50,060 nt of DNA from Thermoanaerobaculia bacterium. GTDB taxonomy: Bacteria; Acidobacteriota; Thermoanaerobaculia; JALWYX01. Shown here piece by piece: positions 17,482 to 26,431 of this stretch. Every line of letters begins with the position of its first letter. Position 1 is the first letter of the stretch. Position numbers and translations under genes: made by a program. The notes beneath the pieces are model-generated. The model made no database searches and had not been told where the DNA came from. It was given only the letters and a program-made list of their open reading frames with translations. The stretch covers positions 1 through 50,060 of the forward strand of contig JALWYX010000046.1 in NCBI GenBank assembly GCA_027078415.1, read 5' to 3'.

Positions 17482-17558
17482 AGGGCCGTAGCTCAGTTGG
17501 TTAGAGCGCTACGTTGACATCGTAGAGGTCAGCGGTTCGAGTCCGCTCGGCCCTACCA
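17482..17558 (+). tRNA. tRNA-Val (anticodon GAC)
   Basis: A 77-base tRNA with encoded CCA. Acceptor stem AGGGCCG pairs with CGGCCCT, the anticodon stem CTACG/CGTAG encloses loop TTGACAT with GAC at 17516-17518, and the T arm is AGCGG-TTCGAGT-CCGCT. It reads GTC/GTT valine codons. Its D and T arms are nearly identical to the next tRNA, so the two are probably a duplication. Confidence 0.97.
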
Positions 17559-17566
17559 TTTTGTGC

Positions 17567-17643
17567 AGGCGCTTAGCTCAGTTGGTTAGAGCGCTACCTT
17601 CACACGGTAGAGGTCAGCGGTTCGAGTCCGCTAGCGCCTACCA
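17567..17643 (+). tRNA. tRNA-Val (anticodon CAC)
   Basis: A 77-base tRNA with encoded CCA. Acceptor stem AGGCGCT pairs with AGCGCCT, the anticodon stem CTACC/GGTAG encloses loop TTCACAC with CAC at 17601-17603. It reads GTG. It begins eight bases after the first tRNA and ends 19 bases before the thrS start, so it is almost certainly cut out of a tRNA-mRNA transcript. Confidence 0.97.
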
Positions 17644-21201: not shown

Positions 21202-23220
21202 ATGTTGGTTCTGTGGTCATGGGTAAGGGAATTTCTCCCTAGTTTGAAAGTGTCTCCGGAAGAGGCAGCTGATAAACTCACCATGGTTGGTTTAAATGTA
21301 GAAGAGGTGAGCAAAGTTGAAAACGATTGGGTCTTCGATATAGAGGTGACCGCCAACCGAGGAGACGTGATGAGTCATCTAGGGGTTGCACGGGAGCTTA
21401 TGGCTATCTACGGTTTAGATTCCTTACAGATGCCTATAGTAATAGAGAGTATGGATGCTCCTATAGATAAAGAACTCGTTTTTATAGAAGATCGTTTCGG
21501 TTGCAGAAGGTATAAGGCTATAGTAGTTAGAGATATACCTAGTGATAAAAATTGTTCTCTAATAGCAGAAAGATTAGAAAAACTAGGTTTTTCCTCTGTT
21601 AACCCTCTTGTTGATATATCGAACTACGTTATGCTAGAAGTGGGACAACCTTTACATTTTTTCGATATTAGAAAGCTAAGTAATGAAAAGGTGATAGTAA
21701 GAAGAGCTAAGGATGGCGAGAAAACTGTTTCTTTAGATGAAGTTGAAAGGGAATTGAACAGTAACGATCTAGTTATAGCGGATAAAGAGAAAGTAATAGC
21801 TATAGCTGGGATAATTGGATCAGCGTCTAGTGAAGTAGACGAGGAAACATCTTCTATTTTTATAGAAAGTGCATGGTTTGATCCTATTTTAATCAGGCGC
21901 ACTTCAAAAAAACTTAATTTAAAAACTGAAGCATCTGCACGCTTTGAAAAAGGTACTGATCCAGCGATAGTTTCATACGCTGCAAGGAGAGCTGTATATC
22001 TTATAAAGAAATTTTTAGGAGGTAATATTTCTAGAAGAGTCTTCGTAGTAGGCGAAAATGTTTCTCCTCCAAAAATGATATATATAGATATAAATAACCT
22101 TAATCAATTTGCAGGAGTAGAAATAGAGAAGGAAAAAGTAAAAACTATATTAGGATCTCTGGGTTTTGAAGTTGAAACGTCCGGTAATCTCTTGACAGTT
22201 GTACCTCCTACATATAGACGTTTCGATGTGGAAGAAAAAGCAGATCTTTACGAGGAGATCCTGAGATTCGTAGGATTCGATAATTTACCCTACGAATTGC
22301 CCGCCTTTCCAGGTAAAGATGCTGGTGATCCACCTGTTATTAAAATAAGGAAGAGAGCAAGAACTTACTTTAAAAGTGTAGGTTTTTACGAAGCTATTAA
22401 TTACTCTTTTGTAGATCCTACTTTTAATGAAAAGTATATAAGCCTTATAGAAGGAGAAGAGGTGGAACTTGTTAATCCTCTTTCTAACAACAACTCACGC
22501 ATGAGAAAGTCTCTTCTACCAGGATTATTACAAAATCTTTCGTATAATGTAAGGCGAGGTAAACTTTTTGGAACCATTTTTGAAATAGGTAACGTATATT
22601 CGTGGAAAAAGAGTAAAAATCTTTTCACAGAGGTTGAACTGTGTGCGGCTGTTGCAGGTGGTAAGCGAGGAACACCTTGGGATAAGATAAGAGACTTAGA
22701 TTTTTACTGGTTTAAAGGAGTTATTGAAAAATTTTTTACCGATTTTGGTATAGAGTTAGATTTTGAAGAGTCTAATGTAAAAGGTTTTAGACAAGCTGCT
22801 TTTATAAGAATAGAAGGTGAAATAGTAGGTGTTATAGGTGAACTTGAAGTTGCAGATAAACGTGTTCATTTCCCCGTTTGGGGAGCGGAATTTATGTTGC
22901 AGAAGATTTTAGAGTATGCAAAGCAGATAAGCGTAGTTTTACCCTCTAAATTCCCCGCTATAACGTTCGATTACACCGTTCAGCATCCTAAAGGAGTTCA
23001 ATGGAGAGAAATAGAAAGTGTGATAGAGCGTTATAAGTCTAAGTATTTAAATACTTTCTTTCTTTACGATCGTTATGAGGGCAAAGGAGTCCCAAGCGGT
23101 ATGGTCAACACTACTATAAGGTTTGTTTACCAAAGTAAAGAGGGATCTTTGAGTAAAAAAGATATAGAAGAGTTGCACACATTGTTGATAGAAAAATTGG
23201 ATTCTTGGAGGAAAGTATGA
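21202..23220 (+). CDS. pheT: Phenylalanyl-tRNA synthetase beta subunit, short form without the tRNA-binding OB domain
   Basis: A 672-residue PheT, more than 100 residues shorter than the usual ~800. The B1 start (WSWVREFLPSLKVS, KLTMVGLNVEEVSKVE) passes directly into DIEVTANRGDVMSHLGVAREL; in standard PheT about 110 residues of an EMAP/OB-type tRNA-binding domain are inserted between these two points. The editing B3/B4 domain (VDISNYVMLEVGQPLHFFD), B5, the catalytic-like core (RARTYFKSVGFYEAINYSF) and the C-terminal FDX-ACB domain (FDYTVQHPKGVQWREIE) are all present and the frame is intact, so this is a domain-loss form rather than a broken gene. Its TGA overlaps the ATG of the zapB-like gene (ATGA). 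Confidence 0.94.
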   Translation: MLVLWSWVREFLPSLKVSPEEAADKLTMVGLNVEEVSKVENDWVFDIEVTANRGDVMSHLGVARELMAIYGLDSLQMPIVIESMDAPIDKELVFIEDRFGCRRYKAIVVRDIPSDKNCSLIAERLEKLGFSSVNPLVDISNYVMLEVGQPLHFFDIRKLSNEKVIVRRAKDGEKTVSLDEVERELNSNDLVIADKEKVIAIAGIIGSASSEVDEETSSIFIESAWFDPILIRRTSKKLNLKTEASARFEKGTDPAIVSYAARRAVYLIKKFLGGNISRRVFVVGENVSPPKMIYIDINNLNQFAGVEIEKEKVKTILGSLGFEVETSGNLLTVVPPTYRRFDVEEKADLYEEILRFVGFDNLPYELPAFPGKDAGDPPVIKIRKRARTYFKSVGFYEAINYSFVDPTFNEKYISLIEGEEVELVNPLSNNNSRMRKSLLPGLLQNLSYNVRRGKLFGTIFEIGNVYSWKKSKNLFTEVELCAAVAGGKRGTPWDKIRDLDFYWFKGVIEKFFTDFGIELDFEESNVKGFRQAAFIRIEGEIVGVIGELEVADKRVHFPVWGAEFMLQKILEYAKQISVVLPSKFPAITFDYTVQHPKGVQWREIESVIERYKSKYLNTFFLYDRYEGKGVPSGMVNTTIRFVYQSKEGSLSKKDIEELHTLLIEKLDSWRKV

Positions 23221-23454
23221 ATGAACAGCTGGTTGAGCACTTGTCGAAAATTGTAGCCAGGGGTAGAGACTGAAATAGATAATTTAAGAAAGGAAAACCT
23301 TAAACTTAAAGATGAGTCGGAACTTTTGCGTAAAAGAATATCGGAGCTTGAATCGTATATTTCCAACATGGAGAAATCTAGAGATGAAGCTAAACAAAAA
23401 ATATTGATTCTTATAAATAAGTTGGAAGATATACTAGATTCTATTAGTGATTAA
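23217..23454 (+). pseudogene. ZapB-like coiled-coil cell-division gene, broken by one extra base
   Basis: From ATG 23217, which overlaps the pheT stop, the frame encodes MNEQLVEHLSKIVAR and then stops at TGA 23271. Removing one base from the GGGG run at 23260-23263 joins it to a frame that stays open to TAA 23452-23454. The repaired product has about 78 residues and is a continuous coiled coil with leucine heptads (VETEIDNLRKENLKLKDE, then LLRKRISELESYISN). A small coiled-coil protein of this kind sits just before zapA in many bacteria and helps to organise the Z-ring. No usable start codon exists near the beginning of the second frame. It may be a sequencing or assembly error in the G-run, a real mutation, or programmed +1 frameshifting. 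Confidence 0.6.
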
Positions 23455-23548
23455 GGGATAAATTTTGTCACGATCTGGTAAGAATATTTCCTCACTATGT
23501 ACTAGGAGTTTATAGAGTATTTTGTTTTGGTATATAAAAATGTAAAAT

Positions 23549-23586: not shown

Positions 23587-23877
23587 GTGGGAAGCAGGAA
23601 AGTAGTTATTTTTGGTAAGGAGTATAAACTGCGTTGTGATGAAGGGGAAGAAAATTATATAGATAAGGTTGCTGCAAAGGTAGATAAGCTTATGTGGAAG
23701 ATGGCAAAGGCGTTGAAGGAAAACGATGAGTGTAAAATTGCAATTTTGGTCGCTCTCAATTTAGCTGAGGAGAATATAAGGCATCAAGAAGTTGAAAGAA
23801 AAATTTCTGAACTTATCTTGCGTTTGGAAAAAAGTTTGGTTGATGAAAAGGTCAACAGCTCTCTACGTCAGGTGTGA
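23587..23877 (+). CDS. zapA: Cell division protein ZapA
   Basis: A 96-residue ZapA-like protein. The N-terminal beta-hairpin (KVVIFGKEYKLRCDEGEENYIDKVAAKVD) is the ZapA signature, followed by a long helix (ALNLAEENIRHQEVERKISELILRLE) for dimerisation and tetramerisation. ZapA cross-links FtsZ filaments at the division site. It begins with GTG 23587 with AGGTGA just upstream. The order pheST-zapB-like-zapA and the structured RNA after it support the call. Confidence 0.88.
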   Translation: MGSRKVVIFGKEYKLRCDEGEENYIDKVAAKVDKLMWKMAKALKENDECKIAILVALNLAEENIRHQEVERKISELILRLEKSLVDEKVNSSLRQV

Positions 23878-23887
23878 TAGTATGAAA

Positions 23888-24056
23888 CGGTGCGGAACCA
23901 ACAGTAATCTCAAGGGAGCCCTGCTCCGTCTATCTGGTGCCAGGTCTAAAGGGGCTAGGCTAAGGATATATGGGGGGGTACCCACTTGGCGGGAGAGGGT
24001 TCCTGGACCCGTTCTCTATCTCCTGGCGTAGAGAGCATCTGTTCTTCCCCTTCGAT
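23888..24056 (+). ncRNA. ssrS: Probable 6S RNA
   Basis: A GC-rich island of about 170 bases in an AT-rich neighbourhood, lying between zapA and rny with no sensible reading frame. It folds on paper into one long interrupted rod. Outer stem GGAA/TTCC (23894-23897 with 24045-24048) and AACAG/CTGTT (23900-23904 with 24039-24043); TCTC/GAGA (23908-23911 with 24031-24034); GGAG/CTCC (23915-23918 with 24020-24023); an open central bubble; GGTGCCAGG/CCTGGACC (23936-23944 with 24002-24009); and a distal GCTAAG/CTTGGC stem (23959-23964 with 23985-23990). A rod with a large central bubble, about 170-190 bases, next to zapA is the profile of 6S RNA, which mimics an open promoter and binds sigma-70 RNA polymerase. 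The exact ends are estimates. Confidence 0.65.
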
Positions 24057-24077
24057 TAGATATTTGGGTGTGAAGAA

Positions 24078-25643
24078 GTGGAAGTGATTACTGCTGTAGT
24101 TATCGGAATAGCAGTAGGTTTGTTGACAGGAGGTGTGGTTTATCTATTTTGGGTGAAACCTAAAGGTGAAAAAATAGTATCTCAAGCTTATAAGCAAGCT
24201 AAGGAGATATTGGAGCAGGCTGATAAAGAAAAGCAGGCGAAACTTAAAGAAGCGGAGGTTGTAGCAAAGGAGAAATTGTTACAAGCTAGGGCAGAATTTG
24301 AGAAAGTATCACGTCAAAGGCGTAATGAATTGGAAGAGTTTGAGAGAAGACTGACTCAAAGGGAAGACACGCTGGAGAGAAAAAGTAGAGATCTCTATGA
24401 TTTGGAAAAGGAACTCAGAAACCAAGAAAAAGAGATCGATAAAAAGATAAAAGAGATAGAGACAAAAGAGAGAGAATTGGATAAACTGATTGAAGAACAG
24501 CAACATAAACTTGAACAACTTTCAGGTATAACTGCCCAGGAAGCAAAAGAAGAATTAATTCGTTTAGTTGAGAATGAAGCTAGGATAGAAGCAGCTCACC
24601 TTATGAGAAAGATAGAAGAAGAGACCAAGGAAAATGCTGTTCAAGAGGCTCAAAAAATTATAGCTACCGCTATTCAAAAAATAGCCTCTGATTATGTATC
24701 GGAGACTACAGTTAGTGTAGTTAATTTACCCAATGACGAGATGAAAGGGAGGATTATAGGTAGAGAAGGTAGAAATATAAGAACTTTTGAGTCGATATTA
24801 GGAGTGGATTTAATAGTAGACGATACCCCAAAAGCCGTTGTGATATCTAGTTTTGATCCGATTAGGAGAGCTATCGCTAAATTGGCTCTAGAGAGACTTA
24901 TAGTTGATGGGAGGATTCATCCCGCCAGGATAGAGGAAATTACAGCTAAGGTGCAGGAGGAGTTTGAAGAACATTTGGTTGAGGTAGGGAAAAAGACGTT
25001 ACTTAAGTTGAATATTTCACGTATGCATCCTGAGCTTGTTAAGTTGCTTGGAAAACTCAAATATAGAACTTCCTATGGTCAAAATGTATTGGATCACTCG
25101 ATAGACGTTGCCTTTTTAGCTGCTTCTATGGCGGCAGAGCTTAAGGTGAACGTGCAAATAGCTAAAAGGGCGGGGTTGTTACATGATATCGGTAAAGCGG
25201 TAGATAGAGAGATGGAGGGTGGCCATCTTGAGTTGGGACGTATGCTTTTGCGTAAATATGGTGAGTCGGAAAAAGTAATTCATGCTATGGAGTGTCACCA
25301 CGGAGATTACGAGCCGAGAAGTGTAGAAGCTGTGCTTGTTACAGCGGCAGACGCAATGTCTGCTGTTAGACCAGGTGCTAGAAGAGAAGTTCTAGAAGCG
25401 TATATGAGAAGATTGGAAAAACTAGAAGAGATAGCATCTTCTTTTGAAGGAGTAAAACAGTGCTATGCCATACAAGCAGGTAGAGAGATAAGAATAATAG
25501 TAGATAGTAAAAAAATATCGGATGAAGAGGCTATATGGTTGGCAAGGAATATTGCAAAAAAAGTTGAAGAGGAGTTAACCTATCCTGGACAGATCAAAGT
25601 TACCGTTATAAGAGAAGTTAGAAGCGTAGAGTACGCTAGATAA
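24078..25643 (+). CDS. rny: Ribonuclease Y
   Basis: A 521-residue membrane-anchored endoribonuclease that starts decay of many mRNAs. In order: N-terminal transmembrane helix (about 4-27), a long coiled coil (about 30-190), a KH RNA-binding domain ([15 protein letters not shown] near 230-245), and an HD domain ([11 protein letters not shown], then [10 protein letters not shown] near 366-375) that carries the metal-dependent active site. Length and domains are normal. The start is GTG 24078 with a weak ribosome-binding site. Its stop TAA overlaps the ATG of the ymdB-like gene by one base, the common rny-ymdB arrangement. Confidence 0.96.
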
Positions 25644-26431
25644 TGAAAGTTTTATTTGTAGGTGATGTAGTAGGTAAACCTGGGAGAAGAGCTTTAAAAT
25701 ATCTATTACCTGCAATTATAGAAGAAGAAAAAATAGACTTTACCATAGTTAACGTAGATAACGCCGCAGGTGGTTTTGGAATCACTTTAAATATATTTAA
25801 TGAACTAAAAAAATTGTCTATAGATTGTCTGACGGCCGGAGACCATTTTAATGATAAAGCAGCTGAATACTCAAAGATAGTTGGTTTATCAAAAGATTTG
25901 ATAAGACCATTAAATGTAAAAGGAGATTATCCAGGTGAAGGAGTGTTTATAGGGGAGAGCAAAAGTGGCATAAAAATAGTAGTTTTGCATTTAATCGGTA
26001 CAGTTTTTATGAAAAACAGTGTTTCACCTTTTAAATTTGCTGAATCTTTCATACCAAAGCTTAGAGAGGTAAGTAATGTTATAGTTGTAGATTTACACGC
26101 AGAAGCTACAAGTGAAAAACAGGCTATGGGTTTTTTTCTAGATGGTAAAGTGAGCGCTGTAATAGGGACGCACACCCATGTTCCTACCGCAGATGAAAGA
26201 ATATTACCAAAAGGAACAGCTTTTATATCTGATGTTGGTATGACTGGAGCTTATAAGTCTATTATAGGATTCTCTCTGGATTCTTCTATTCCTAGGTTTA
26301 TCGGTTATAATAATTCCTACCTTAAAGTAGCAAAGGAAGAGGTTAAGCTTTCAGGTTGTATAATAGAAATTGATGAAGAGTCGGGGAGATCTACCGGTAT
26401 AAAGAGAATAGTCAAACCTTTGGAATATTAA
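25643..26431 (+). CDS. YmdB-like metallophosphoesterase
   Basis: A 262-residue protein of the TIGR00282/YmdB family ([50 protein letters not shown]). Characterised members bind two metals and hydrolyse cyclic nucleotides such as 2',3'-cAMP, affecting biofilm and motility choices. The family's usual metal-binding GNHxWD motif reads GDHFND here (near residue 73), so Asp replaces the Asn ligand and Asn replaces Trp. The usual ENAAGG is DNAAGG. The enzyme may have altered activity. It is translationally coupled to rny by a one-base overlap and followed after three bases by a glycosyltransferase gene. Confidence 0.88.
   Translation: MKVLFVGDVVGKPGRRALKYLLPAIIEEEKIDFTIVNVDNAAGGFGITLNIFNELKKLSIDCLTAGDHFNDKAAEYSKIVGLSKDLIRPLNVKGDYPGEGVFIGESKSGIKIVVLHLIGTVFMKNSVSPFKFAESFIPKLREVSNVIVVDLHAEATSEKQAMGFFLDGKVSAVIGTHTHVPTADERILPKGTAFISDVGMTGAYKSIIGFSLDSSIPRFIGYNNSYLKVAKEEVKLSGCIIEIDEESGRSTGIKRIVKPLEY

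Follow-up and report, generated by a model that had tools for sequence, protein, structure and literature searches.

6S RNA is a small RNA that restrains bacterial RNA polymerase, and the cell-division gene zapA is a frequent, though not a universal, neighbour of its gene. The locus described here raises the question of whether a structured RNA situated between zapA and rny in a Thermoanaerobaculia bacterium (assembly GCA_027078415.1, contig JALWYX010000046.1) belongs to this family, as an earlier note had proposed, and where this RNA begins and ends. The window, i.e. the whole stretch of DNA that was analysed, comprises 50,060 nucleotides of a genome of 1.96 Mb that is 97% complete. The protein encoded by rny has its closest records among Acidobacteriota, and the gene following rny is presumably of the ymdB/TIGR00282 type (table 1). 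Elsewhere in the window, a tandem pair of tRNA genes at 17482–17640 is ordinary. Upstream of zapA, a small coiled-coil frame (23218–23455), which by its position may be ZapB-like, is split: its first codons are in one frame and the remainder in another; the shift is found near a GGGG run (approx. 23260–23263) and could be either a sequencing or assembly slip or a real frameshift.

Standard searches gave little indication of a 6S RNA. The Rfam 6S model (RF00013), which the earlier note had named as a check, does match the window at 23876–24020, but with 17.3 bits the match lies below the gathering score of 46.4, a detection cut-off set by curators and not a biological trait. At E = 0.28 (551 bases against 4227 families), it had the lowest E-value of the five Rfam matches listed, the four others (E = 2.8 to 9.4) being dismissed as unrelated families. 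No 6S match was obtained in the window at the gathering score, and none to RF00013 at E ≤ 10 when the organism's own genome was searched as a whole. A plain DNA search of 60 genomes, which included the organism's own but no other member of its family, returned a best non-self match of E = 8.1e-4 over 39 bases, and such short matches were not taken as homologues. By itself, the direct Rfam test would have led to the rejection of a correct 6S call.

The picture is different with a model specific to the class. The 30 best-scoring RF00013 loci of the class were fetched, all 30 of them lying between zapA and rny, and 25 of these 6S RNAs were used to build a covariance model, R1, from which the window was excluded (L092, L096, L098, L105 and L111 being the five left out). 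R1 matches the window over its full length at 23857–24038 (48.7 bits, E = 5.7e-12), and this is the sole match at E ≤ 10 in the whole 1.96 Mb genome (E = 2.2e-10). Among 147 genomes of the class, RF00013 detects a 6S RNA in 108 at E ≤ 1 and in 100 above its cut-off, the organism's own genome being one of the misses, whereas R1 at E ≤ 0.01 finds exactly one match per genome in 133, the organism's own included; 25 of these 133 supplied the sequences of R1 itself, and some of the 14 misses were perhaps lost to strict filters. The class-specific model thus raises detection and reveals in this genome a 6S gene that standard Rfam annotation overlooks. The window gives the lowest R1 score of the 133. 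The earlier note had called 6S RNA rarely described in this lineage; it is not rare there, as the 100 genomes above the Rfam cut-off show.

The gene order points in the same direction. Across 133 loci (the 30 RF00013 loci, 102 further ones and the window), the 6S RNA follows immediately on a zapA frame in every case, the position after zapA having been put forward in the earlier note; rny is found within the downstream flank at 123, and the other 10 may reflect short flanks. When rny neighbourhoods were gathered independently, by protein, a plus-strand R1 match was present just upstream of rny in 42 of 56 (59 loci in all, three of which had no DNA upstream of rny and were left out of the R1 search). 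With filters off, the 14 rny loci lacking an R1 match yielded nothing better than a match of 14.9 bits (E = 0.011) that covers 79 bases away from rny and was taken as chance. At the gathering score, Rfam applied to nine loci (eight of those fourteen and L068) detected a 6S RNA in L068 only.

The last of these, a locus from Goldiibacteriota, carries a strong 6S RNA (positions 1540–1720, 102.1 bits), also found by R1, directly upstream of rny, and the 6S–rny order therefore extends beyond Acidobacteriota. Two other groups are of interest for the distribution of the RNA:
— In family f10, all three sampled genomes (G017, G025 and G029; 92–96% complete) are without an R1 match, and the 6S RNA may have been lost, moved or become too diverged.
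— In five loci from Acidobacteriota or Aminicenantes (L040, L075, L085, L069 and L087), zapA and rny are separated by a gap of approximately 170–240 nt, in which no credible R1 match was seen even with filters off; these gaps may hold 6S RNAs diverged beyond R1.

Table 1. Features of the zapA–rny region (positions in the window; MFE, minimum free energy).
Feature	Position	Strand	Basis and remarks
zapA	23587–23877	+	ORF list; zapA profile, E = 1e-34; stop TGA at 23875–23877; offset to RNA −21
6S RNA gene	23857–24038	+	R1, full length 1–188, 48.7 bits; ends taken from the class-model alignment, predicted
5′ arm of 15-bp closing stem	23858–23872	+	MFE fold; within the zapA reading frame
GGAACC, conserved 5′ flank of central bubble	23894–23899	+	alignments; helix 2, 97.3% of cells paired
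Central bubble, 5′ strand	23900–23913	+	inferred from class consensus structure
Apical hairpin, 3 + 5 bp	23939–23960	+	MFE fold
Central bubble, 3′ strand, after conserved ACCC	23984–23997	+	class consensus structure
GGTTCC, partner of GGAACC	23998–24003	+	class-model alignment; pair list
3′ arm of closing stem	24022–24036	+	MFE fold
rny (RNase Y)	24078–25643	+	ORF; protein relatives; start approx. 40 nt after RNA
Gene after rny	25643–26431		ORF list

The ends of the RNA differ from those first proposed. The earlier note had described a G+C-rich island folding into a long rod at 23888–24056. Both island and rod are present, the G+C content reaching 0.52–0.58 at 23850–24049 against mostly 0.26–0.47 around it (100-base windows), but the coordinates were shifted and the 5′ arm had been missed: the RNA starts approximately 31 bases earlier, within the zapA frame, and ends approximately 18 bases earlier. 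With the start moved to 23858 the missing arm is included, and 15 consecutive base pairs (GCTCTCTACGTCAGG with CCTGGCGTAGAGAGC) close the rod. The stretch 23858–24040 folds at −84.8 kcal/mol (z = −4.70, none of 200 shuffles being as low), whereas 23878–24060, near the span first proposed, has a z-score of −0.01 (96 of 200 shuffles as low); the exact span 23888–24056 reaches −64.7 kcal/mol. A closing stem, an internal central bubble and an apical stem were all found, the bubble being partly paired in the MFE fold, and the apical hairpin appears in the fold of the window, yet is gapped in the alignment. By the model, the RNA is 182 nt in size, against a class median of 187.

Covariation upholds the 6S structure. 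In an alignment of 54 matches from 53 sources (A4; one source adds an antisense row), standard pairs occupy 95.3% of cells, changes on both sides are seen at 34 of 46 pairs against a shuffled mean of 20.6, and the pairs reach a covariation score of 0.398, compared with 0.158 for shuffled alignments (none of 500 as high) and 0.05–0.08 for slid structures. A4 was fitted to the model, and R1 and A4 derive largely from sequences detected by the Rfam 6S model, so that these pair counts lean toward the 6S structure. Within A4, the row of the window is the most divergent, keeping 33 of the 46 consensus pairs, with six broken and seven gapped, the fewest of the 54 rows; the small 3′-side hairpin of the bubble is lost. 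At four nearly invariant pairs of columns, however, the window differs on both sides and still pairs: UA instead of the CG of the other 53 rows (columns 6/288), AU instead of GC in 52 rows (14/279), GC instead of UG in 51 rows (16/278) and AU instead of GC in 52 rows (25/271). Such preserved pairing argues against simple decay.

On this sequence evidence, i.e. the sole genomic match of a model built without the window, the covariation and the zapA–6S order, the RNA between zapA and rny is a 6S RNA, strongly diverged yet well preserved, and a new but ordinary member of a known family, in agreement with the identity originally proposed. The best explanation, to which we assign a probability of roughly 0.93, would be a 6S RNA (ssrS) produced from the zapA transcript or from a promoter internal to zapA and acting as a promoter mimic of RNA polymerase. 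The RNA would be transcribed with zapA, or from within it, and trimmed to about 180 nt; its rod with an open central bubble would mimic an open promoter and occupy the RNA polymerase–sigma70 holoenzyme as growth slows, until the polymerase is released by using the bubble as a template for a short product RNA. Open-promoter mimicry, binding of the sigma70 holoenzyme and release via a short product RNA are described for other 6S RNAs (PMC9130861), and polymerase binding, product RNA and growth-phase regulation would be expected here by analogy with the family.

Two other explanations were weighed. The RNA might act in cis, as a leader of rny or as a 3′ element or terminator of zapA, and be rod-shaped without being a free 6S RNA; its distance of some 40 nt from rny, a terminator-like stem that ends at 24036 with a weak T tail and the recurrence of rny downstream in 123 of the 133 loci are all compatible with such a role. 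Nevertheless, both sequence and structure match 6S RNAs, some loci scoring well above the Rfam cut-off, and in Proteobacteria 6S RNA is reported to follow zapA with other genes downstream (PMC7641849, PMC9788540), so that rny is not a constant partner. The cis-regulatory leader was set aside as highly unlikely.

The low R1 score of the window, the lowest in the class, raises instead the prospect of a 6S relic decaying in a reduced genome, with which the six broken consensus pairs and a genome of 1.96 Mb, most class members having larger ones, would also be consistent. Yet the closing stem is perfect over its 15 bp, the fold has a z-score far below that of shuffled sequences, the changes on both sides preserve pairs that are near-invariant elsewhere, and R1 detected no second 6S copy in the whole genome that could serve as a replacement. 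A relic is thus extremely improbable, and a diverged 6S RNA remains our reading.

The overlap of this 6S RNA with the reading frame of zapA is the unexpected part, and the one feature worth follow-up. The last 21 nt of zapA (23857–23877) are the first 21 nt of the RNA, the codons TCT CTA CGT CAG GTG TGA sitting within the 5′ arm and the stop codon UGA falling at R1 model positions 19–21. A UGA occupies exactly these positions in 119 of the 133 loci, and lies within two bases of them in seven more. Overlap was seen at 18 of 133 loci, namely the window and two other clades (an initial impression that it was unique to the window, from 0 of the 30 best Rfam loci, came from a biased sample):
— An overlap of 28 nt occurs at five loci, where zapA ends in GGPCAVGDG.
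— An overlap of 21 nt occurs at 12 loci, where zapA ends in LRGA or LRGT, as well as in the window.

The other 115 loci have 3 to 106 nt between the zapA stop and the RNA. In a phylogeny of 57 RNase Y proteins, the 28-nt and the 21-nt loci each form a cluster, separated from the remaining labelled rows with 100/100 support; L061, which carries no label, is nested among the 21-nt loci. The window belongs to neither cluster, its branch being long and its position weakly supported. The simplest reading would be separate origins of the overlap, the alternative being shared ancestry with later loss.

Because the 5′ arm is zapA coding sequence, no single transcript should be able to yield a mature 6S RNA and still serve as an intact zapA message: the 6S RNA would be either cut from the zapA transcript, destroying its stop codon, or made from a promoter of its own inside zapA. 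Expression from the zapA promoter, which the earlier note had entertained, may gain in plausibility from the start of the RNA within zapA. A perfect TATAAT at 23548, upstream of the zapA start, is accompanied by a weak −35 (2/6), and a promoter-like site inside zapA (9/12, second hexamer ending at 23819) was also noticed; neither was counted as evidence. That the overlap is a regulatory device which arose more than once, ZapA synthesis competing with 6S maturation for each transcript, seems to us rather unlikely. If it were true, excision of the 6S RNA would truncate the zapA message, and translation of the last zapA codons would unwind the closing stem, so that a brake on transcription would be coupled to the availability of a division protein; the enzyme making the cut could well be RNase Y, whose gene is adjacent. 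The recurrence of the overlap in the window and two clades makes it testable whether one transcript can be both zapA message and 6S precursor. No report of a 6S RNA in Acidobacteria, or of a 6S/zapA frame overlap, was found among titles and abstract openings, which leave most of the subscription literature uncovered, and this absence is no proof of novelty.

Compared with known systems, the RNA resembles 6S RNA/SsrS (RF00013) in its size, within the class range of 158–239 nt, in its closing stem, its apical arm and a central bubble with GGAACC/GGTTCC and GGG/CCC at its flanks, and in its place after zapA, which is also reported for beta- and gammaproteobacteria (PMC7641849, PMC9788540). It differs in its sub-threshold RF00013 score, in beginning inside the zapA frame, and in being followed by rny and not by ygfA, the gammaproteobacterial order being zapA–6S–ygfA (PMC9788540). 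Ms1 of Actinobacteria, a structurally 6S-related RNA that binds the core enzyme of RNA polymerase, has a HAD hydrolase and an oxidoreductase as neighbours (PMC9130861); with zapA and rny on its flanks, the RNA of the window is set apart from Ms1 as so described, and this identity was set aside. It is also similar to the 6S RNAs of Thermoanaerobaculia, with which it shares the zapA–6S–rny order, the motifs and a single copy per genome, and among which it belongs to the 18 that overlap zapA, unlike the 115 that start past the zapA stop.
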